From: Ignavibacteriales bacterium
GTDB taxonomy: Bacteria > Bacteroidota > Ignavibacteria > T3Sed10-11
DNA length: 64,000 nt
Assembly: GCA_003562775.1 (NCBI GenBank)
Contig: PWTU01000190.1
Span: 42,381-106,380, forward strand
Direction of reading: 5' to 3'
The notes under the pieces were generated by a model. The model did no database searches, was not told the origin of the DNA, and was given only the letters and a program-made list of their open reading frames with translations. Both the position numbers and the translations under genes were made by a program. Shown piece after piece: positions 37,067 to 56,696 of the stretch. Position 1 is the first letter of the stretch, and every line of letters starts with the position of its first letter.

Positions 37067-37100
37067 AAAAAGGGACGCCCATATATTGGGCATCCCTTTT
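37067..37100. terminator. Bidirectional terminator between argD-like and cytochrome genes
   Basis: A stem of AAAAGGGA and GCCCA against TGGGC and TCCCTTTT with one mismatch and a TATAT loop. T-rich sequence follows in both directions, fitting the convergent genes at 36999 and 37128. Confidence 0.85.
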
Positions 37101-37127: not shown

Positions 37128-39203
37128 TTATTTGATAAACACCATTCGCTTCGTTTGTACGAAACTACCCGCCTGGATGCGGTATAGGTACACGCCGCTG
37201 CTGACGAGTTGTCCGTTTGAGTTTCTTCCATCCCATGTTGCGGTGTATGTTCCCGTACCCAATACTTCATTTACCAGTTGCGTTACTTCACGTCCGGTAA
37301 TATCGTAGATCGTGAGTGTTACGTTTGATTGCTCCGGTATCGAGAATTGGATTTGCGTTGTCGGGTTGAACGGGTTCGGATAGTTTTGCGTGAGCGCAAA
37401 TTTCATCGGAACATCCGGTGTGTTTTCAAATCTGACATTTGTTATATTTTCAATCGATCGTTGTAACAATGCCACGACGTATTTCGGGTTGTGGATACCG
37501 AGACTTTGATCGCCATATACATATCGATAGTTCCAGTAAGCACCCTTCATTTTAATGTCGTCATTGTCGATTTGCTGCCAGCTAATGGTCGGTTCACCGA
37601 CAGGAGGGAGTGATTCCGCGAGCATTGTTAATAATCCCTGGACTTCATCCATAAACGGTTCAACGGTACCGCTCATATTGTAATCGGCGCCCTTTATATC
37701 GGCAAAGCTCGTGATACCGGCATGACATGTTTGGCAAGCTTCGACAAGATCTCTGGTATTTCCTTCATCATCGGTATATCTCATCTTCCAGGAATGATCA
37801 CCAAGAAGATTGCGGAATTCACCACCTGCGGAACTCATATGACAATCGACGCAGGCATTCCCTTGATGGAGATGCGCCATACTGGTCGGCAACTGGGATT
37901 CAAAATCATAGCCACCTTTACCGAGCATTACGTCTGTTGCCCCGGCGTAGTGTGGGCCAAAACGGCTATAAATGTCTGTATACATTACCTCGTTGTACCC
38001 GTCACCGCGGAATTTATGACAATCGGTACAGGTTGCGCCCGCACCGAATATAGACGGATCATACGCAAATCCACCGGCGAGAGTATCGGCTGATGCCGGA
38101 GCTTTACGCAACCCACCTTCATGAGGATCATGGCAAGCTTCACAGGTTATTGTTACAAATGTATCCGGTCCGTAAACATCCGCGGAGGTGTTTGTACCGA
38201 CCCCTTTAGTGAAGTTTACATAAGCACGACCGTCATGACAACGCACGCAATCACTCAGGCTGTTAGATCCGTCGCGGTTTCTAAAGCTGTTTGACCATAC
38301 CGCATCGATATGACCGCTTCTTCTGAATGAATGAAACTGTGCAGTAGGCCGTGTTGCGTCGTGACACGACATACACGATTGTGACCGGAATTGAGCTGCC
38401 ATATAATCCCGATCACGCCAGAATGAGGTACCTCCCGTGTGCACGCTGCCGGCTCCGTGGCATGATTCACAACCGATTGTGGCAACTTGCGCTAATTCCG
38501 GGTGGTCATCGACTAATGCATCAAAAGTTCCGGGGGCGGGTGTTGCTGGAAATTCCCAACCGGTTTCGGCTTTAAGAGAGAAATAGCTGTTGTTTTGAAG
38601 GTCGATTGTAGCCAATCCGGTTGTGGCAGTTCTTTGTCTTCCTGCTCCGAAACCCGGTATTTGGCCGTCGACGCCGCGTTGGAACGCTGTTGCGTGATCG
38701 GTGGTTATCCATTTTTGTAAAATATCATTATGGCAGGTACCGCATTGTGGAAAAAGAGGATCAACTTCGCCAACACCGCCGGCGCCGAGATACATGTTCC
38801 CGGAAAAGACACGCTCGGTGGAATTTGTTCCTTCGTCGGTCGTGATGGTCAATTTTACTACGAACCGACCCACGACATCGGCGGTAAAGTAGTAAATTCC
38901 TTCTTCTTCAGCTACAGGAGTAATCTCTGCGGTTGATCCATCGGGTAGTGAGGCGAATTCCCAGGTATAATCCGTAATTTCATTACCGTCTTGATCGTGT
39001 GCACGCAGGTATACGTGCTCCCCTTTTCCGACGTTTTGAAGGCCTGTCGAGGGGAAAAATTCTGCTCCGAGGCCAAGCTGACTTTGTAATAATGGAGACA
39101 TCGGTACAATTTCAATATAAGGAGATTGTGCTGATGATATTCCCCCTATTACAAAAACCAGTATGACGGCAGGGAGTACTAATTTAATAAGTGAATGCTT
39201 CAT
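37128..39203 (-). CDS. Secreted octahaem c-type cytochrome with type IX sorting domain (copy A)
   Basis: A 691-residue exported protein. A signal peptide (LPAVILVFVIGGISSAQ) is followed by an Ig/PKD-like beta domain (about 55-145, EHVYLRAHDQDGNEITDYTW). Eight CxxCH haem-attachment motifs follow: CGTCH, CESCH, CMSCH, CVRCH, CEACH, CTDCH, CVDCH and CQTCH. Additional histidines (FHSFRRSGH, DHSWKM) may be distal ligands. The last 80 or so residues are a type IX secretion C-terminal domain (NYPNPFNPTTQIQFSIPE, then SSGVYLYRIQAGSF). This predicts a surface or extracellular electron-transfer or redox protein. It is a paralogue of the gene at 39566. A GAGGTGATA site precedes the start. Confidence 0.9.
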   Translation of the reverse strand: MKHSLIKLVLPAVILVFVIGGISSAQSPYIEIVPMSPLLQSQLGLGAEFFPSTGLQNVGKGEHVYLRAHDQDGNEITDYTWEFASLPDGSTAEITPVAEEEGIYYFTADVVGRFVVKLTITTDEGTNSTERVFSGNMYLGAGGVGEVDPLFPQCGTCHNDILQKWITTDHATAFQRGVDGQIPGFGAGRQRTATTGLATIDLQNNSYFSLKAETGWEFPATPAPGTFDALVDDHPELAQVATIGCESCHGAGSVHTGGTSFWRDRDYMAAQFRSQSCMSCHDATRPTAQFHSFRRSGHIDAVWSNSFRNRDGSNSLSDCVRCHDGRAYVNFTKGVGTNTSADVYGPDTFVTITCEACHDPHEGGLRKAPASADTLAGGFAYDPSIFGAGATCTDCHKFRGDGYNEVMYTDIYSRFGPHYAGATDVMLGKGGYDFESQLPTSMAHLHQGNACVDCHMSSAGGEFRNLLGDHSWKMRYTDDEGNTRDLVEACQTCHAGITSFADIKGADYNMSGTVEPFMDEVQGLLTMLAESLPPVGEPTISWQQIDNDDIKMKGAYWNYRYVYGDQSLGIHNPKYVVALLQRSIENITNVRFENTPDVPMKFALTQNYPNPFNPTTQIQFSIPEQSNVTLTIYDITGREVTQLVNEVLGTGTYTATWDGRNSNGQLVSSGVYLYRIQAGSFVQTKRMVFIK

Positions 39204-39565
39204 TATATCACCTCTTTGTATTTATGTATTGTGTATAAATACTACATGTTCTGTGAAAAATACAGCAATTTAAATGCCATATATCATTTTTTATGAAAAA
39301 CGTTATAGATTCCAAGTAATGAGGATATGATGTTTCAAGAATAGGAAAATGCAATATTCTTTTTTGCAAATATAGTAATTTGAAAGTCATCTAACAAATA
39401 AATCTGAATTAGATAATAAGACCTGTTAGTATGAATAAATTCTTTTGGGTCCATGTCGGTGTTGATATATACAACAGTGCATAATAAAAAACCCGCAATG
39501 AATGGAACAACATACAATGCGGGTTCGATTATGTCCTCTTTAAATATGTGTAGGTAAAATTTTCC
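39204..39565. other. Intergenic region between the two cytochrome genes
   Basis: These 362 bases hold the leader of copy A and the terminator of copy B. On the minus strand a TTGCTG and a TAGTAT separated by 18 bases occur about 50-80 bases upstream of copy A, so copy A may have its own promoter; this is a weak match. No ORF with a ribosome binding site is seen. Confidence 0.45.
39486..39525 (-). terminator. Terminator of the copy B cytochrome gene
   Basis: On the minus strand AACCCGCA pairs with TGCGGGTT, with further pairing broken by a mismatch, and the stem is followed by TTTTTATTAT. It lies 41 bases after the stop at 39566. Confidence 0.8.
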
Positions 39566-41641
39566 TTATTTGACGAACACCATCCGTTTTGTTTTAATGA
39601 AACTACCTGCTTGAATACGGTAAAGATATACGCCGCTGCTGACAAGCTGTCCGTTATAATTGCGTCCATTCCACTCTGCAGTATAGGTACCTGCAGATAA
39701 TACTTCATTAACCAATTGTGTTACCTCGCGCCCGGCTATATCGTAAACCGTGAGTACTACGTCTGATTGTTCGGGTATTGAGAATTGAATATGCGTTGTA
39801 GGATTAAACGGATTGGGATAATTCTGGGCAAGTACAAATTCTGCCGGAATATCCGGAGTATTTTCAAATTCAATGCCGGTCAATGTTCGAAGTGATCTTT
39901 GAAGTAATGCAACCGTGTATTTTGGATTGTGAATGCCTTTGCTCTTATCGTTTCTTACAAAAAGATAATTCCAATACGCTCCTTTTTGATCGAGATCGTT
40001 GTTGTCAATTTCTCCGGGATTTACTGTCGGTTCACCCAGCGGTGGTAATTCCATAGCAAGCCAATCGAGTAATCCCTCTACTTCATCAACAAAAGGTTCT
40101 ATGATACCCGACATATTATAATCTGCACCCATAATGTCTGTAAAGCTGTTGATGCCGCCATGACATGTTATACATGATTCAACAAGGTCGTTTCGCATCC
40201 CGTCAATGTCCGCACTCATACTCCAGGAATGATCACCTATATGGTTTCGAAGATCGCCGCTTGCGGTTGTCATATGGCATCCCACACAAGTATTTTCAAT
40301 ACCCTTGTGCGCCTGGCTGCGTGGTGTTTCGGTATCAAATTCATAGCCGCCATTCCCGAGCAACATATCGGTTGCGCCGGCATAGTGTGGTCCCCAGGGC
40401 GGCCCCGGAACACGTATCGCTATATTTGGTACGGCATGTTCACCGGAGGCACGAAACTTATGACAATCTGCACAGGTAGCACCCATTCCAAGATTGATAT
40501 CTGCATAGCTAAATCCGGATGACAGGGTATCCGATTCCGCGGGACTTGTTCGCAAACCGCCGGCGTGAGGATCATGGCATGATTCGCAGCTTATGAATAC
40601 ATGATCATTTTGTGAATAGACATCTTGCCGGGTATCGGTACCACTTCCTTTCGTAAAGTTTATATACCCACGACCGTCGTGACAGCGGACGCAATCCTGT
40701 AAACTATTTGATCCATCACGATTTAAAAAACTGTTATGCCATATTGGATCGGAGTGACCGCTTCTTCTAAAAGAATGAAATTGCGCGGTTGGTCTTGAAG
40801 CATCATGACACGATTGACAGGATTCCGATGTGTATGAGACTTTTAATAAATTTCTGTTATGAAAATCTCCGGTGTGTAGACTGCCGGCTCCATGACAGCT
40901 TTCACAACCGACAGTTGCAACTTGCGCTAATTGAGGATGATTTTCTACCAGATCATCGAATGTACCGGGAGCTGGAGTTGAGGGAAATTCCCAACCTGTT
41001 TCTGCTTTAAGAGAAAAATAGCTGTCGTTTGAGAGATCGGTGTCTGCAATGCCGGTGGTTGATGTTCGTTGTCTGCCTGCGCCGAATCCCGGCACCTGTC
41101 CGTCAACCCCGCGCTGGAATAAAGTCGCATGATCGGTAGATACCCATTCCAACATAATATCGTTATGACAGGTGCCGCATTGAGGAAACAAGGGAGGAAC
41201 ATCACCGACACCACCAACTCCTTTGTACATATTTGCTGAGAATACCTGTTCGACACTATCTGTGCCTGAGTCGGTAGTTATGGTTAAACGAACAATGTAT
41301 TGTCCGATAACATCGGCTGTGAAATAATAAATTCCTTCTTCCTCAACGGCGGCTGCTATTTCGGAAGACGAGCCATCCGGTATAGAAACAAGTTCCCAGA
41401 TATATTCGTTAATTTCGCCGCCATTGATGTCCGTTGCACGAAGATATATATGCTCACCTTTTCCTACGTTCCGAAGTCCCGTTGAATGAAAGAACTCGGC
41501 AGTAAGACCGAGTTGCTCTTTTAGCAATGGAGACATCGGTACAACATCAATGCGGGCGTTCTGTGCCATAAGAAGACCGGACAATGTCAGTGTGCTTGAA
41601 AGGAAATAAACATAGAATGCGGTAACAATTCGTTTTGACAT
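39566..41641 (-). CDS. Secreted octahaem c-type cytochrome with type IX sorting domain (copy B)
   Basis: A 691-residue paralogue of copy A with the same domain order: signal peptide (ending LLMAQ), Ig/PKD-like domain, eight CxxCH motifs (CGTCH, CESCH, CQSCH, CVRCH, CESCH, CADCH, CVGCH, CITCH) and a nearly identical type IX sorting tail. Between haems 2 and 3 it has a shorter loop (GDFHNRNLLKVSYTSESC) than copy A, and after haem 6 a slightly longer one (SGEHAVPNIAIRVPGPPWGP). The length is equal by compensation. Haem-motif spacing and flanking residues are conserved, so a shared fold is expected. It is divergent from the TetR gene. Confidence 0.9.
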   Translation of the reverse strand: MSKRIVTAFYVYFLSSTLTLSGLLMAQNARIDVVPMSPLLKEQLGLTAEFFHSTGLRNVGKGEHIYLRATDINGGEINEYIWELVSIPDGSSSEIAAAVEEEGIYYFTADVIGQYIVRLTITTDSGTDSVEQVFSANMYKGVGGVGDVPPLFPQCGTCHNDIMLEWVSTDHATLFQRGVDGQVPGFGAGRQRTSTTGIADTDLSNDSYFSLKAETGWEFPSTPAPGTFDDLVENHPQLAQVATVGCESCHGAGSLHTGDFHNRNLLKVSYTSESCQSCHDASRPTAQFHSFRRSGHSDPIWHNSFLNRDGSNSLQDCVRCHDGRGYINFTKGSGTDTRQDVYSQNDHVFISCESCHDPHAGGLRTSPAESDTLSSGFSYADINLGMGATCADCHKFRASGEHAVPNIAIRVPGPPWGPHYAGATDMLLGNGGYEFDTETPRSQAHKGIENTCVGCHMTTASGDLRNHIGDHSWSMSADIDGMRNDLVESCITCHGGINSFTDIMGADYNMSGIIEPFVDEVEGLLDWLAMELPPLGEPTVNPGEIDNNDLDQKGAYWNYLFVRNDKSKGIHNPKYTVALLQRSLRTLTGIEFENTPDIPAEFVLAQNYPNPFNPTTHIQFSIPEQSDVVLTVYDIAGREVTQLVNEVLSAGTYTAEWNGRNYNGQLVSSGVYLYRIQAGSFIKTKRMVFVK

Positions 41642-49713: not shown

Positions 49714-52700
49714 ATGCGTAAAGTGTTGAAAATAGGATTGTGGGTTAGTGCGGCGGCTCTGCTTTTATTTTTACTATTTATTATTGCTCTTCAGACTGCT
49801 CCCGTTCAGAATTATATTGCGCAAAAATTAAGTCAACAGCTATCGAATAATCTTGATACAAAGATTTACGTTGACAGGGTGAGGATTCGTGTACCCCGGT
49901 CCATATACCTCGATGGATTGTATATCGAAGACCAGCAACAGGATACGCTCTGGTATAGCGAAACTCTCGCTCTGGAACTCGATATGTTCGGACTTATTCG
50001 CAACAAGCTGAACATCCACTATTTCTCGCTTGAAAATGTTACCGCGAATGTTTATCGACTCGAACCCGGGGGGAAATTCAATTTCGATTTTATTTTGGCG
50101 GCTTTTACTGATGAAGAACCGCCGGAGGATGTCCCGGGAAAAGAACCCGGAAAACCCTGGAATATTGTAATCGACCGAATATCATTGAAAAATTTCAATA
50201 CTCAATTTGCAGACCAAACAGCGGAAGAAGAAGTAAAAATCCGTTTTGAAAATTTAAATCTTAAACTTAACGATATACGTTTTTCTTCTCTCGATAATGT
50301 CGTGAAGGCAGAATCGTTGGAGCTCGGTATTGCGGAAATGGCGTATCATTCTTCAAATGGAGAGAATGAGATTCCGCAAGAAGGGGTTGATTTTACCAAT
50401 GTGCGGTTATCGGATATTAAAGTTGATATCAGGGAGATGTTTTTTGGCGGTGAGGGTGGTTCCGCTAATATTCACTCTTTTACGTTGATGGAGCAGCGTG
50501 GATTCTCATTAAAAGATTTCACGGCATTAATATCCGTCGATGAGCAAAGCACAAGCATTGATAACTTATATATTGAAACGGGTCATTCAATTATTGATGC
50601 TTCTTTTCTGGCTGAATTTCAATCTTTCGAAAGTGCACGCAATAATCCCGAGTTGATACATATTGATTTTATACTTAAGGAATCTTTTCTCGGTTTCGGA
50701 GATGCACTGTTTTTTCAACCGGATCTAATCGAACGATTCCCGCTGGAGAAATCTGCCGGAGTAACAATAGTCGCCTCGGCTAAAGGCGCTTTGAACGATC
50801 TTACCATTCAGGAGATAGCAGCACATATGCTGGATGATACGAACTTAAAGATGTACGGCCGCATTACGGGGATGCCGGCATTCGATGAGGCATCGTTCGA
50901 TATTACGATGGAAGAATTCACCACCGGTCGAAACGACATAGTTCGACTCCTCGCCCCGGATATGCTTCCCGGCGATATTATAATTCCACCTTTAATCAAT
51001 TTGACCGGTGTGTACAATGGATCGGTTGATCGGTTCGATACATTCGTCGATGCTCGGACAACATTCGGTCGGGCAACTGCTACAGTAAAAATGGATATTC
51101 GTGATGGACGGGAGCGCTATAATGGAAGCATCGTTGTGAGCCGGTTGGATGCAGGACGGCTGCTCGATCAATCGGATCAATTAGGCGCCGTATCACTTAC
51201 TGCTTCGATAGAGGGGAGCGGATTCGACCTGGAAACTATCGATGCATACCTTGATGCAACGATCGATCAGATATACTTCCAGGGATATGATTATACCGAT
51301 ATGCACATTGACGGACGATTTCGAACTCACCGGTTTACCGGTTATGCGGGAATGGATGATCCGAATCTGACATTTCGTTTTAACGGAGATGTGGAATTTG
51401 CCGATGATGAACCGGCGCTTGCATTTGAATTTGAGCTGGACAATGTCGATCTCCAGGCACTGGGATTTTTAGACGAAGAAATGACTATTCGAGGCGCCAT
51501 CCATGCAGATTTTACCGGAAGTACCATTGAGACAATCAATGGGACGGCGCGAATGAAGGATGTTCTTATTGTACACGAAGGACATCGGTTTCCGATCGAC
51601 TCTCTTATTGTAACGGCAACATCGCAGCCCGGTCTATACCGGATTTTAGTTGAGTCTGATCTCATCGCAGCTTCATACGCTGGAAATGTCAATCTGCTTG
51701 AATTACCGCCTCTTTTAACCGACCATGTTAATTATTATTTCGATCTTCATCATCTGGAAACTATCGATGAAGTACAGAATCGTCATTTCACATTCAGTAT
51801 TGAGTTGTTGAGTCCCGAGTTGTTATTTGAGGTGTTTTTACCGGAGCTCCACGATCTTTCACCAGCTGCGGTGAGGGGTAATTATACCGGTGAAAATCGA
51901 ACTTTAAATATCGAGGTCGATGTACCGTCGGTAACTTACGGAACGTACCTCATCGACTCAATGCGCGTTCACTTTACCTCCGACCGCGATCGCATCGAGT
52001 ACGATATACGTGCCGCTCATGTTGAGATGACCTCGATGAAATTTACAGCCCCGGAAATATCCGGAAATATCCGCGAAAATATTGTATCAACCAATATTGT
52101 TCTTTATGATAACGAATTTGAAACGTTTTTTGCATTGGGTGGTTTGTTCGAAAGTTCGGATACTGTATACACATTTAGCTTAATACCCGGAGATTTGATA
52201 TTGAATTATGTTCGCTGGCAGCTCCCTGAAGAAAATTATATCCTGTTCGGCGATGGTTTATTATATGTATATAATGTTCGTTTGGAACGTGAAGGCAGCC
52301 GGATTGTAGCTCAAAGCCGGGATGATGGATCACGAACGCCGCCCGTAGAGATCATAATCGATGAATTTGATATCTCGGATATTCCGCGAATGATCCGGGA
52401 CGACGATCTTCATATCGCCGGGAATCTCAACGGAAATATTTTACTAACCGATGTATTGACCGAATTGAAGTTGAATATCGGTCTGATTCTTGAAAATTTG
52501 GTTTTCGACCGGCATAAAGTCGGCAGCATTGCATTGAACGTAAGCCAGGAAGTACCCGAGAGATATGACGTAAGCGTCGCTATGAGCCAACAGGATAATC
52601 GGGCTGCGATTACAGGATTTATAAGCACGGGGAATGAAGAGAATGAATTAAATCTCGATATGAATATCGAAAATTTAAATCTTGCTTCGATCGAAGGTTT

Positions 52701-54366
52701 TACATTCGGCGAATTGAAAGATATGAGTGGATCGATTACGGGCGATCTGTCTATTACCGGTTCATCCGTGTCGCCCGATGTGAACGGATCAATAACCTTC
52801 CGGGATGCCTTATTTACGGTTACACAACTGAATTCACAGCTTCGTTTGGCGCAGGAAACTCTCACGTTCAATCGCGACGGCGTTATATTTCCGGATGTCA
52901 CCATTCTCGATTCTGCCGGTAATAGAGCAATTATCACCGGCAGTATTTTTACGGCGGATTTTTCGGATTTCCGTTTTGCCCTTGATGTGCGGTCTTCAAA
53001 TTTCATGTTGATGAATACGTCGCGTCAGCATAACGAATTATTTTACGGACGAATTCTGATCGACAGCGATATACGAATTCGGGGAGACCAGCGTTTGCCC
53101 GTTATTAATGCTTCCATCGGTTTGAAGGATGGAACGAGTATTAATGTTATTGTTCCCGAACAGGATCCCGAAGTAATCGAGCGTGCGGGCATTGTAGAGT
53201 TTGTTAAGATGGATGGAAACCACCAGCCCGTTTATGAGGTAGATGAACGACCGGATACCATCCGTACCGGACTTCAGGGACTGGATATTACGGCAAATAT
53301 CGATGTCGGCTTACAAACCGTACTACGGGTTCTCATCGATGAACAGGCGGGTGATTATCTCCAGGTACGTGGAGGAGGCACATTGAGTTTTGGGTTGGAT
53401 CCGAGCGGATTAATGAGTCTTGCCGGCAGGTATGAGATAACACAGGGATCTTACCAGATGACTTTCTATGAAATATCCCGTCGGCGATTTGACATTCGAC
53501 CGGGAAGCAACATTATATGGACGGGCGATCCGGTGGATGCTGAAATAGATATGACCGCAATATATACCGTTCGGGCATCGGCAGTTGATCTTGTCGCGGA
53601 TCAGGTAGGAGATGATGCACGACCGCAATTCCGGCGTGTACTTCCTTTCCAGGTCCATTTAAATATGAAAGGGAAGCTGATGGCGCCGGAGATTGGTTTT
53701 GAACTTGATATGCCAGAAGAACAACGGGGTGTATTCGGCGGAGTAGTATATCAACAGATACAGCAAATTAATCAAAATGAAACGGAACGTAATAAACAAG
53801 TTTTTGCACTCCTTGTACTTAACAGGTTCTTGCCCGAAAACCCGTTTGAATTCGGTGAGGGCGCCGGTTTAACGGGAACTGCACGGGCAAGCGCAAGTAA
53901 ATTGTTGACGCAACAGTTAAATGCATTATCGGGCAGGTATGTCCGGGGGATGGATATACGGTTTGATGTCGAGTCCTATGAAGAATTTACCGAAGACGGA
54001 CCGGCAGGTCGCACGGCGCTGCAACTGCAAGTCTCCCGCCGGTTTCTCGAAGATCGTTTAATTGTTGAGCTTGGTGGACAGTTTGATATCGAAGGGGAGC
54101 GGGCGCGTCAAACGGAAATAAGCGATCTTGCAGGAGATGTTGCGGTTGAATATATGTTGACTATGGATGGACGATTTCGCGTTCGTGGTTTCAGAAAAAC
54201 CGAACTCACTACACTCGGGGAGGGTGAAATAATATATACCGGCTTATCGCTCGTCTATGCACGGGAATTTAACCGGTTTATGGATCTCTTCAGAAGATCG
54301 CGCGATGTCGATCCCGCACCGGAAGAGGAAATTATTGGAAGCGATGAGCGGGATGGCAAGGAATGA
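49714..54366 (+). CDS. tamB: Translocation and assembly module protein TamB
   Basis: A 1550-residue inner-membrane-anchored protein spanning the periplasm. One N-terminal helix (LLLFLLFIIALQTAPVQNYI) is followed by AsmA-like sequence (IYVDRVRIRVPRSIYLDGLY) and a very long series of short beta strands that form a hydrophobic groove. The C-terminal DUF490/TamB domain (about 1180-1500) includes ITQGSYQMTFYEISRRRFDI and VFALLVLNRFLPENPF. TamB proteins move phospholipids or help insert outer-membrane proteins. Its last four bases overlap the TamL gene (ATGA), confirming a functional pair. Confidence 0.93.
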   Translation: MRKVLKIGLWVSAAALLLFLLFIIALQTAPVQNYIAQKLSQQLSNNLDTKIYVDRVRIRVPRSIYLDGLYIEDQQQDTLWYSETLALELDMFGLIRNKLNIHYFSLENVTANVYRLEPGGKFNFDFILAAFTDEEPPEDVPGKEPGKPWNIVIDRISLKNFNTQFADQTAEEEVKIRFENLNLKLNDIRFSSLDNVVKAESLELGIAEMAYHSSNGENEIPQEGVDFTNVRLSDIKVDIREMFFGGEGGSANIHSFTLMEQRGFSLKDFTALISVDEQSTSIDNLYIETGHSIIDASFLAEFQSFESARNNPELIHIDFILKESFLGFGDALFFQPDLIERFPLEKSAGVTIVASAKGALNDLTIQEIAAHMLDDTNLKMYGRITGMPAFDEASFDITMEEFTTGRNDIVRLLAPDMLPGDIIIPPLINLTGVYNGSVDRFDTFVDARTTFGRATATVKMDIRDGRERYNGSIVVSRLDAGRLLDQSDQLGAVSLTASIEGSGFDLETIDAYLDATIDQIYFQGYDYTDMHIDGRFRTHRFTGYAGMDDPNLTFRFNGDVEFADDEPALAFEFELDNVDLQALGFLDEEMTIRGAIHADFTGSTIETINGTARMKDVLIVHEGHRFPIDSLIVTATSQPGLYRILVESDLIAASYAGNVNLLELPPLLTDHVNYYFDLHHLETIDEVQNRHFTFSIELLSPELLFEVFLPELHDLSPAAVRGNYTGENRTLNIEVDVPSVTYGTYLIDSMRVHFTSDRDRIEYDIRAAHVEMTSMKFTAPEISGNIRENIVSTNIVLYDNEFETFFALGGLFESSDTVYTFSLIPGDLILNYVRWQLPEENYILFGDGLLYVYNVRLEREGSRIVAQSRDDGSRTPPVEIIIDEFDISDIPRMIRDDDLHIAGNLNGNILLTDVLTELKLNIGLILENLVFDRHKVGSIALNVSQEVPERYDVSVAMSQQDNRAAITGFISTGNEENELNLDMNIENLNLASIEGFTFGELKDMSGSITGDLSITGSSVSPDVNGSITFRDALFTVTQLNSQLRLAQETLTFNRDGVIFPDVTILDSAGNRAIITGSIFTADFSDFRFALDVRSSNFMLMNTSRQHNELFYGRILIDSDIRIRGDQRLPVINASIGLKDGTSINVIVPEQDPEVIERAGIVEFVKMDGNHQPVYEVDERPDTIRTGLQGLDITANIDVGLQTVLRVLIDEQAGDYLQVRGGGTLSFGLDPSGLMSLAGRYEITQGSYQMTFYEISRRRFDIRPGSNIIWTGDPVDAEIDMTAIYTVRASAVDLVADQVGDDARPQFRRVLPFQVHLNMKGKLMAPEIGFELDMPEEQRGVFGGVVYQQIQQINQNETERNKQVFALLVLNRFLPENPFEFGEGAGLTGTARASASKLLTQQLNALSGRYVRGMDIRFDVESYEEFTEDGPAGRTALQLQVSRRFLEDRLIVELGGQFDIEGERARQTEISDLAGDVAVEYMLTMDGRFRVRGFRKTELTTLGEGEIIYTGLSLVYAREFNRFMDLFRRSRDVDPAPEEEIIGSDERDGKE

Positions 54367-56696
54367 ATATCGTCATGTTATATCCTATGTATAAGTTATA
54401 TATATATTGCGTGTCTATCATTATATTAGCAATATCCATCACAGGATGCAGCACTACACGGTATCTCGCCGAAGATGAAAAACTGTATACCGGTGCAGAT
54501 ATAAAACTTGAGTCTGAGGAAAAAATAGAAAATAGACGTGCTGTTGAAAGGGAGCTCGAGGAAGTTGTCCGTCCGCGTCCTAACGACAAACTGTTCGGTT
54601 TATTCCGTCATCGTCTCTGGTTTTATTCTGTAGCAGGAGAAGAAGCAGATCGTGGTTTGAGAGGATGGATTAAAAACCGGCTGGGACAACCGCCGGTGTT
54701 GGTCGAACACGCGAACCCGGAAAATACATCTATCCTTATGAGCAACCGTCTTCAGAATCTCGGTTATTTTAATGCGAAGGTTGCATACGAAATAAGCGAA
54801 CGAAAACGCACGGCGAATATACTATACACGGTACAACCGCATCATCCTTATCGAATCAATGATATTCACTTCCCTGAACCCGATATGGAATTAACCGAAG
54901 AAATACGGAACACAAAAGATGAGACCCTCCTTCGTGAAGGAGAGATATTTAATCTTTCGGATCTCCGTGCTGAACGTGAACGAATCGATGCGGTGTTAAA
55001 AAACAGGGGGTTTTTCTATTTTAACGTCGATTTTATGCGCTTTCGCGCAGATAGTACGATAGGCAACAATCAGGTAGATTTATTTCTAACGGTGCGTGAA
55101 GATGCGCCGAGGGCGGCGCAATATCGGTACAGAATCGGAAATATATATCTGTATCCCGACTATATTCTTGACCGGGATGTAATCTCCCTTCCGTCGGATA
55201 CAATCTACACTGATGGTATGTATATAATCCAGCATGAGAATAGATTTCGTCCGGAAATATTTGATCGTTATGTATTTTTTAATACGGGAGATTATTATAA
55301 CAGACAGGATCACTTGCTAACCATCAACAGGTTGATGGGACTCGGCATGTTCAAATTCGGAAATGTACGGTTTCGTGAAACCGACAACGTTGAACAACCG
55401 TCGCTCGACGCACATATATATTTGACGCCGGTTACCGAACGTTCGCTGCGCGCGGAATTTCGAGCGGTGAGTAAGTCGAACGATCTTGCCGGTCCGGGAT
55501 TAAGTATGGGGTACCGCAACCGGAATCTGTTTCGCGGGGCGGAATTGTTTACTGCGGATATCAATACGAGTTTTGAAACCCAACTGGGTGGAGGCCAGCG
55601 CGGACTTGCATTGTATCAAATCGGTGTGGAAACGGAGCTGCAAATACCGAGAATCATATCACCGATACCGATATTTACCCGTGAAAGTTTGTTTGTGCCG
55701 AGGACACGTATTCGATTCGGTTACGATATACTCCATCGTGTCGATTGGCTCAGGATTAATTCCTTTTCGACCCGATTCGGTTATGTCTGGATGAGCGGGC
55801 GATATGTCCGCCAGGAATTGAATCCGATCGGTTTAAATTATTTTCGCAGTACTGTTATAAGTTCAGAGTTGGAGGATGATCTAACGGAGAATCCGGCGCG
55901 GCGTCGTAGTCTCGAATCCCAGTTTATTATCGGGACAACCTATTCGTTGTTTTTTAACAATCAAACTGATGCTCAAAGGCGAAATCACGTGTACTTCAAT
56001 TTCAATGTAGACCTTGCGGGTAATACGATTAATCTTCTTCAATCGTTATTCCGGTCCGGTGCAGCGACCGAAGACGAGCCGTTTACAATGTTCGGTATTC
56101 CATATTCACAGTATGCGCGTGCGGATTTTGATCTGCGATATTATTTACGCACCGGTGAAAAATCTCAAATCGTAACGCGGTTAATTGCAGGCGTCGGTGT
56201 ACCTTACGGTAATTCAACCTCAATGCCGTATGTTAAACAATATTTCAGCGGTGGTTCCAACAGCATTCGGGCATTTCCCGCCCGGTCGCTTGGTCCGGGA
56301 ATCCTTCCGCCACCGGAGGACGACGGTTTCATCACGGATCGGACAGGTGATATCCGGTTGGAAGCCAATCTTGAATATCGATTTCCGTTTGTAAGCATTT
56401 TAAAGGGCGCATTATTTATTGATGCGGGAAATATCTGGATGGTCCGGCAGGACGAAACGCGCGAGGGCGTTGTATTCGATTTCAATGCCTTTGCGGGCGA
56501 ACTTGCAGTTGGAACCGGATTCGGTTTGCGCCTTGATGCCTCGTTTTTCGTTATCCGGTTCGACATAGCATTTCCGCTCCGGAAACCATATTTGCCGCGC
56601 GGTGAACGCTGGGTGACCGATGAGATTGATTTTGGTAATTCTCAATGGCGACGCGATAATCTGGCGTTTAATATTGCAATCGGGTATCCGTTTTAA
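54363..56696 (+). CDS. tamL: TamL: lipoprotein BamA/TamA-family outer-membrane protein
   Basis: A 777-residue Omp85 protein. The signal peptide ends in lipobox ITGC (Cys29), a feature of the Bacteroidota-type TamL rather than proteobacterial TamA. POTRA-like domains occupy roughly residues 60-400 (FNLSDLRAERERIDAVLKNR is typical). The 16-strand barrel follows, with the Omp85 motif region GGSNSIRAFPARSLGPGILP near residue 635 and a C-terminal FNIAIGYPF strand. It overlaps tamB by four bases. Alternative starts at the later in-frame ATGs would shorten the signal peptide but keep the lipobox. Confidence 0.92.
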   Translation: MNIVMLYPMYKLYIYCVSIIILAISITGCSTTRYLAEDEKLYTGADIKLESEEKIENRRAVERELEEVVRPRPNDKLFGLFRHRLWFYSVAGEEADRGLRGWIKNRLGQPPVLVEHANPENTSILMSNRLQNLGYFNAKVAYEISERKRTANILYTVQPHHPYRINDIHFPEPDMELTEEIRNTKDETLLREGEIFNLSDLRAERERIDAVLKNRGFFYFNVDFMRFRADSTIGNNQVDLFLTVREDAPRAAQYRYRIGNIYLYPDYILDRDVISLPSDTIYTDGMYIIQHENRFRPEIFDRYVFFNTGDYYNRQDHLLTINRLMGLGMFKFGNVRFRETDNVEQPSLDAHIYLTPVTERSLRAEFRAVSKSNDLAGPGLSMGYRNRNLFRGAELFTADINTSFETQLGGGQRGLALYQIGVETELQIPRIISPIPIFTRESLFVPRTRIRFGYDILHRVDWLRINSFSTRFGYVWMSGRYVRQELNPIGLNYFRSTVISSELEDDLTENPARRRSLESQFIIGTTYSLFFNNQTDAQRRNHVYFNFNVDLAGNTINLLQSLFRSGAATEDEPFTMFGIPYSQYARADFDLRYYLRTGEKSQIVTRLIAGVGVPYGNSTSMPYVKQYFSGGSNSIRAFPARSLGPGILPPPEDDGFITDRTGDIRLEANLEYRFPFVSILKGALFIDAGNIWMVRQDETREGVVFDFNAFAGELAVGTGFGLRLDASFFVIRFDIAFPLRKPYLPRGERWVTDEIDFGNSQWRRDNLAFNIAIGYPF

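Follow-up and report, generated by a model that had tools for sequence, protein, structure and literature searches.

Tandem octahaem relatives of the reductase OcwA with predicted type IX sorting tails in an Ignavibacteriales bacterium

Two adjacent genes in a 64,000-nucleotide stretch of an Ignavibacteriales genome (GenBank assembly GCA_003562775.1, contig PWTU01000190.1, positions 42,381 to 106,380; the whole stretch is called the window) encode proteins with eight haem-binding CxxCH motifs and a C-terminal tail of the type IX secretion kind, and they raise the question of whether multihaem cytochromes may leave the cell by this route and what they would do outside it. We estimate with a probability of roughly 0.6 that the two proteins, named A and B, are c-type cytochromes that serve extracellular electron transfer on the outer surface of the cell. 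The reading is built from sequence, i.e., from the haem motifs, the tail, the machinery genes, the family to which the proteins belong, the loss of one haem and the order of loss and duplication, and from these we infer haem attachment, export and the electron-transfer role.

The gene pair and its domains

The features of the pair and the evidence on which each was delimited are as follows.

37128-39203, minus strand: cytochrome A, 691 residues, eight haem motifs (translation of the open reading frame, motif count)
39566-41641, minus strand: cytochrome B, 691 residues, eight haem motifs, upstream of A and co-directional with it (translation, motif count)
39126-39203, minus strand: putative signal peptide of A, residues 1 to about 26 (reading of the sequence: basic start, hydrophobic core, no lipobox Cys)
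41564-41641, minus strand: putative signal peptide of B, residues 1 to about 26 (reading of the sequence)
38787-39125, minus strand: PKD/Ig-like domain of A, residues 27-139 (AlphaFold, Foldseek, weak Pfam PKD_4 match)
41222-41560, minus strand: PKD/Ig-like domain of B (weak PKD_4 match, homology to A)
37404-38786, minus strand: multihaem domain of A, residues 140-600 (haem motifs, family alignment, profile match)
39842-41221, minus strand: multihaem domain of B (haem motifs, family alignment, profile match)
37131-37391, minus strand: predicted C-terminal type IX (type A) sorting domain of A (TIGR04183, 46.9 bits)
39569-39829, minus strand: predicted C-terminal type IX (type A) sorting domain of B (TIGR04183, 42.3 bits)
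37068-37100, minus strand: intrinsic-terminator-like hairpin 3' of A with a 14-pair stem and a T run (terminator scan)

The initial annotation had described both 691-residue reading frames as a combination of signal peptide, immunoglobulin (Ig)/PKD-like domain, eight CxxCH motifs and type IX tail, and in this the motifs, the profiles and the structural model agree. The motifs lie at residues 154, 245, 277, 319, 354, 392, 451, and 490 of A and at residues 155, 246, 275, 317, 352, 390, 452, and 490 of B. Residue shuffles of the same composition gave a mean of 0.01 and a maximum of 2 such motifs, so that eight per protein is far above chance, and no other open reading frame of more than 80 codons in the window contains CxxCH. 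Both tails exceed the TIGR04183 cut-off of 23 bits for a type A sorting domain, as well as the cut-offs of Pfam Por_Secre_tail and FlgD_ig, and the signal peptides, which were delimited by eye without a predictor, appear to be of the non-lipobox type.

The N-terminal domain reached 17 bits with Pfam PKD_4, below the cut-off of 27. In an AlphaFold model of A, computed from an alignment of five sequences, the first ~110 mature residues are predicted with confidence (predicted local distance difference test, pLDDT, mostly 70-94) and have a PKD domain as their best Foldseek match; structure comparison of the model thus confirms a PKD-type domain, which, speculatively, may act as a spacer or as a partner-binding module. 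A and B are 66% identical over their full length. The terminator scan gave no site on this strand between B and A, and the promoter scan of the locus remained at chance level.

An OcwA-related family and the loss of haem 2

Among which cytochromes do A and B belong? The initial annotation had pointed to the octahaem tetrathionate and nitrite reductases for comparison, and these proved not to be the nearest kin. A profile of 36 homologues found its best match in 6i5b (OcwA; E 8.5e-30) and its second in 6qvm (1.1e-21), which, from its PDB label, we take to be an OmhA-type multihaem cytochrome of Carboxydothermus; NrfA, octahaem nitrite reductase, MccA, and cytochrome c554 came after these. Identity as an octahaem tetrathionate/nitrite reductase was ruled out by the far stronger relation to OcwA and by the absence of the catalytic CxxCK, all eight motifs in A and B being CxxCH. 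The rear haem pair and the helical region that follows it do align with NrfA and the octahaem nitrite reductases, but A and B lack the CxxCK haem and are by motif not such reductases.

OcwA of Thermincola potens is a nonahaem terminal reductase of the cell surface; its haems 1-4 superpose on cytochrome c554 and its haems 5-9 on NrfA, the distal side of its active-site haems 2 and 5 is open, beneath HH281/282 and HH380/381 respectively, and it reduces nitrite and hydroxylamine (PMC6703420). The homology of the family to OcwA spans the front and the rear haem parts of the profile match, with a c554-like order of motifs at the front, an NrfA-like order at the rear, and a retained C-terminal G-H-N motif. 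The haem domain would be built like that of OcwA, a c554-like tetrahaem part being joined to an NrfA-like pentahaem part. OcwA differs in its Gram-positive host, its nine haems and its His-His pair over haem 2, whereas A and B are without haem 2 and the pair and carry in addition a PKD domain and a type IX tail. The second-best match leads to the 11-haem OmhA-type surface cytochromes of Carboxydothermus (PMC7829351), which are related terminal Fe(III) reductases but have more haems, a monoderm host and no sorting tail.

When 396 genomes of the phylum were searched with a five-sequence profile, 62 gave a homologue; 61 of the 62 belong to the class of the window, and 48 of the 172 genera sampled are represented. 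The weakest matches include reading frames of ~350-420 codons, so that full-length members are fewer than the 62 genomes suggest. When 30 loci were taken from the best matches without selecting for the tail, the matching reading frame was found to end in a NYPNPFNP...SG.Y...K type tail in all 30. The family alignment comprises 37 complete or nearly complete members, for which the tail was required. A and B thus belong, judging from these sequences, to a large and apparently undescribed family of nonahaem OcwA relatives; the presence of nonahaem OcwA relatives in Gram-negatives had itself already been noted (PMC7829351). Two loci (L106 in genome G378 and L111 in genome G224) carry adjoining second nonahaem copies in lineages other than that of the window, indicating that tandem duplication took place more than once.

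The sites at which the pair departs from the nonahaem state are these.

38625-38639, minus strand: lost haem 2 site in A, RQRTA as against CxxCH in 32 nonahaem relatives (family alignment)
41060-41074, minus strand: lost haem 2 site in B, RQRTS (family alignment)
38331-38357, minus strand: stretch of A aligned with the His-His pair over haem 2 of OcwA, His replaced (T287) (alignments)
40775-40801, minus strand: stretch of B aligned with the His-His pair over haem 2 of OcwA (alignments)

All 32 aligned members outside the clade of the window have nine haem motifs. These include L078 and L085, which were considered as additional octahaem members and dropped, as their first motif is CxxxCH and not CxxCH. 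In the clade of the window, which consists of A, B, and the proteins of loci L044, L045, and L046 from two other metagenome-assembled genomes (MAGs), RQRTxTTG replaces CxxCHxxG and the other motifs remain in register; haem 2 is therefore absent in five of five members within the clade and present in 32 of 32 outside it. Since the OcwA outgroup also keeps haem 2 (CAGCH in the profile alignment), loss is simpler than gain, and the alignments indicate that the octahaem state arose from a nonahaem one when haem 2 was lost.

The histidines of the distal pocket follow the same pattern. The HH of OcwA at chain positions 252-253 (the offset to the numbering of the paper, worked out by hand, is 29) aligns with the stretch after haem 4, and a His occupies the position of the haem-2 pair in 23 of the 32 nonahaem sequences; all five octahaem sequences have T or S there instead. 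Haem 2 and the aligned His are both missing from all five, so that the haem and its pocket His have gone together. Four residues beyond the position of the OcwA pair, the octahaem sequences carry a different His (H291 in A). The pattern is less clear for the haem-5 pocket, where a His lies no more than six residues before the conserved PH in 14/32 nonahaem and 0/5 octahaem members. Eight non-motif His (170, 255, 298, 361, 418, 444, 470, and 571 in A) are kept in 36 or 37 of the 37 members, which would be enough for eight bis-His haems; an all-bis-His arrangement was considered and is not claimed, since the sequence does not assign one of them to the equivalent of OcwA haem 5.

Of the two reactive sites known from OcwA, the lineage would have given up the first by losing haem 2 and its distal-pocket His, and A and B would act less as small-molecule enzymes than as conductors or surface reductases. 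It is conceivable that they are exported and nonetheless act as enzymes on soluble compounds such as nitrite, hydroxylamine, NO, tetrathionate, or sulfite, with the equivalent of haem 5 as the reactive site: they share a superfamily with NrfA, octahaem nitrite reductase and MccA, most members of the NrfA/HAO/MccA superfamily act in this way, OcwA itself has activity on two of these compounds, and the distal ligand of the haem-5 equivalent is not assignable. We nevertheless regard such a function as unlikely, given that the motifs are without exception CxxCH, that haem 2 and the distal His have gone, that no His is present where OcwA has its haem-5 pair, and that the genome encodes an NrfA of its own, which has the CxxCK motif and adjoins an NrfH-like gene.

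The phylogeny, which was computed without the haem-2 site and the His-pair stretch, places the five octahaem sequences on one branch (100/100) inside the nonahaem family and groups A with L044 (99/95) and B with L045 and L046 (99/97). This pairing points to a single haem loss, followed by tandem duplication of the gene and then by the split of the lineages, with both copies kept. Changes in two loops had been taken in the initial annotation as signs of specialised copies. The loop after haem 6 does distinguish A from B copies in the relatives too; the longer loop between haems 2 and 3 is found in the A of the window only and not in its orthologue L044. What diverged after the duplication were the haem domains and one loop. 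The ratio of nonsynonymous to synonymous substitution rates (dN/dS) was about 0.03-0.08 whether taken over whole genes, haem domains or tails, and one pair gave 0.16 in its PKD domain. These values come from the comparisons in which synonymous sites were unsaturated (most were saturated), and both copies look constrained. The haem domains follow orthology, with 66% identity between A and B as against 76% between B and L045. At the two ends of the proteins the order is reversed: the tails are 84% identical between A and B vs. 68% between B and L045, and the PKD domains 66% vs. 53% for the same comparisons. This looks like gene conversion between the ends of the tandem copies, although the tail of A shares 91% identity with that of its orthologue L044.

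Secretion, electron transfer and the setting of the genes

The initial annotation had held that a lack of type IX secretion genes or of cytochrome c maturation genes would refute its reading; genes of both kinds were found. The genome encodes SprA (924 bits), two PorU (>1000 bits each) that directly adjoin PorV (316 bits) on one contig, and 115 matches to the sorting tail. Ccm-type haem lyase domains are located on the contig of the window itself, where by eye CcmC-, CcmE-, and CcmF-like reading frames come after a CcmA/B-like pair. The paired PorU-type sortase genes next to PorV are on contig G000:C140 (locus L059, 8675-16983). SprA was present in 73 of 73 genomes tested, whether or not they carry the cytochrome, and its co-occurrence with the cytochrome is therefore uninformative; the secretion system is a property of the class.

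The signal peptide suggests that Sec would take the chain to the periplasm, where the Ccm system, whose genes are present, would attach the eight haems. The type IX system would then recognise the C-terminal tail and move the folded holoprotein over the outer membrane, and the PorU sortase would remove the tail and fix the protein to the surface. Electrons would enter from multihaem cytochromes of the inner membrane and periplasm by a conduit and, to judge from OcwA and the context, an extracellular acceptor would be reduced. Export by type IX secretion, as first proposed, is favoured by the type A tail, by the machinery genes and by the retention of the tail at 30 of 30 loci, and remains a prediction from sequence.

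Were the tail instead a structural FlgD-like Ig domain, the cytochromes would stay periplasmic or be held at the periplasmic side of the outer membrane. The tail does score with FlgD_ig, and PorM/GldM was not detected (the controls were silent too); however, the tail tops the cut-off for a sorting domain, recurs at 115 places in a genome that also encodes SprA, PorU and PorV, and is kept in every homologue inspected, and we consider a structural role quite improbable. Polymerisation after export into OmcS/OmcE-like filaments is highly improbable, for although one conserved non-motif His per haem would suit a conductive chain, as would tandem copies, the match to OmcS is negligible (E 0.16) and a fixed tail with a PKD domain fits single surface display better.

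For surface cytochromes engaged in extracellular electron transfer, the genes around relatives and elsewhere in the genome provide a context. Among the nonahaem relatives, the closest two (L063 in G338, L077 in G228) lie a few kb from 13-/19-haem cytochromes and b561 genes, and two others (L064 in G307, L065 in G272) have an 18-haem cytochrome and a b561 gene close by; 20 neighbourhoods were read, of which these are four. The G228 neighbourhood also holds, between these genes, a second sorting-tailed octahaem gene (L105, 5218-6786), and PAS-kinase and sigma54-type regulator genes were by eye frequent neighbours of the family. The genome of the window contains a 911-residue fusion of 19 haem motifs with a b561 domain (G000:C165, L133, 5469-8201), a decahaem lipoprotein followed by a rhodanese (G000:C344, L135, 1-3653), the above NrfA with its NrfH-like neighbour, and a third sorting-tailed octahaem cytochrome (G000:C352, L134, 2644-4155), which belongs to another family, has no PKD domain, keeps the haem-2 motif and resembles the G228 gene beside the nonahaem copy. 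This list was drawn via Pfam PF09699 only and may be incomplete. The b561 fusions may be akin to the CbcL-type quinol oxidases of Geobacter. These multihaem genes make an electron-transfer role plausible and would leave ammonia-forming nitrite reduction to the NrfA gene. On G000:C344 the end of a CxxxxCH/CxxCH cytochrome, the decahaem lipoprotein and the rhodanese lipoprotein follow one another, a row that resembles parts of the Ext-type clusters of Geobacter, with a weak match to ExtM. It may form part of a conduit through the outer membrane, with the porin off the short contig.

The same surface job would be expected of A and B as of MtrC/OmcA and the porin-cytochrome conduits, but MtrC and OmcA are of another fold family (the MtrC profile match is weak, 0.003), and they are lipoproteins exported by type II secretion, not type IX. 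Membership in the MtrC/OmcA decahaem family failed on the eight haems and on a TIGR03507 score of 18.2 bits vs. a cut-off of 209. The proposed difference from porin-cytochrome conduits holds insofar as type IX secretion would place the protein outside; it moves the protein, yet electrons must still cross the outer membrane, and the question of the conduit is thus separate from that of export.

Several observations weigh against surface display and electron transfer. In the AlphaFold model the haem domain of A has predicted helices at a pLDDT below 50, for which reason we claim no fold for it from the model, and the MAG of the window is 85% complete with 7% contamination. No match to GldM/PorM was obtained in this genome or, with the Pfam model, in eleven relatives, in a motor search that used GldM/PorM models only and did not cover PorL, PorK, or PorN; control genomes were equally silent, so that this negative carries no weight. 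No MtrB-type porin (PF11854) was detected in 12 genomes, OmbB/Ext-type porins not having been searched for, and a porin-cytochrome conduit of the MtrB type was accordingly not found. Finally, the pair is flanked by a TetR gene and an efflux operon and not by an electron-transfer cluster.

The TetR gene and the HlyD/ABC efflux operon lie divergently upstream of B, and downstream of A follow an aminotransferase gene and, as identified by eye, coaE and the gene for RNase Y. The order TetR-B-A-aminotransferase recurs in the Ignavibacteriales MAG T3Sed10_11, where it was assembled from two contigs, and TetR-B-A in MAG CSSed162cmB_234; the names of both presumably point to soda-lake sediments. Elsewhere in the window (49714-56696) TamB-like and Omp85/POTRA genes stand side by side.

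Multihaem-rich Ignavibacteria with porin-cytochrome genes are known (PMC7399161), and the authors of the OcwA structure have proposed that octahaem cytochromes arose from nonahaem ancestors via loss of haem 2 or 5 (PMC6703420). No literature that joins type IX secretion and multihaem cytochromes was found in a search that left most subscription journals outside. We suggest tentatively, and at somewhat less than even odds, that a bacterial class displays OcwA-type reductases via type IX secretion instead of lipoprotein export, and that a nonahaem reductase became an octahaem conductor here by losing the haem-2 site and its His, a present-day case of the step proposed by the OcwA authors. If true, type IX secretion would be a route for multihaem cytochromes out of the cell, and a terminal-reductase family known structurally from Gram-positives would extend to many Gram-negative genera. 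This also raises the question of how, in genomes that gave no MtrB-type porin, electrons would get to a cytochrome exported by type IX secretion. The loss of haem 2 on a well-supported branch with living nonahaem sisters would moreover make the effect of removing a site measurable in close relatives.

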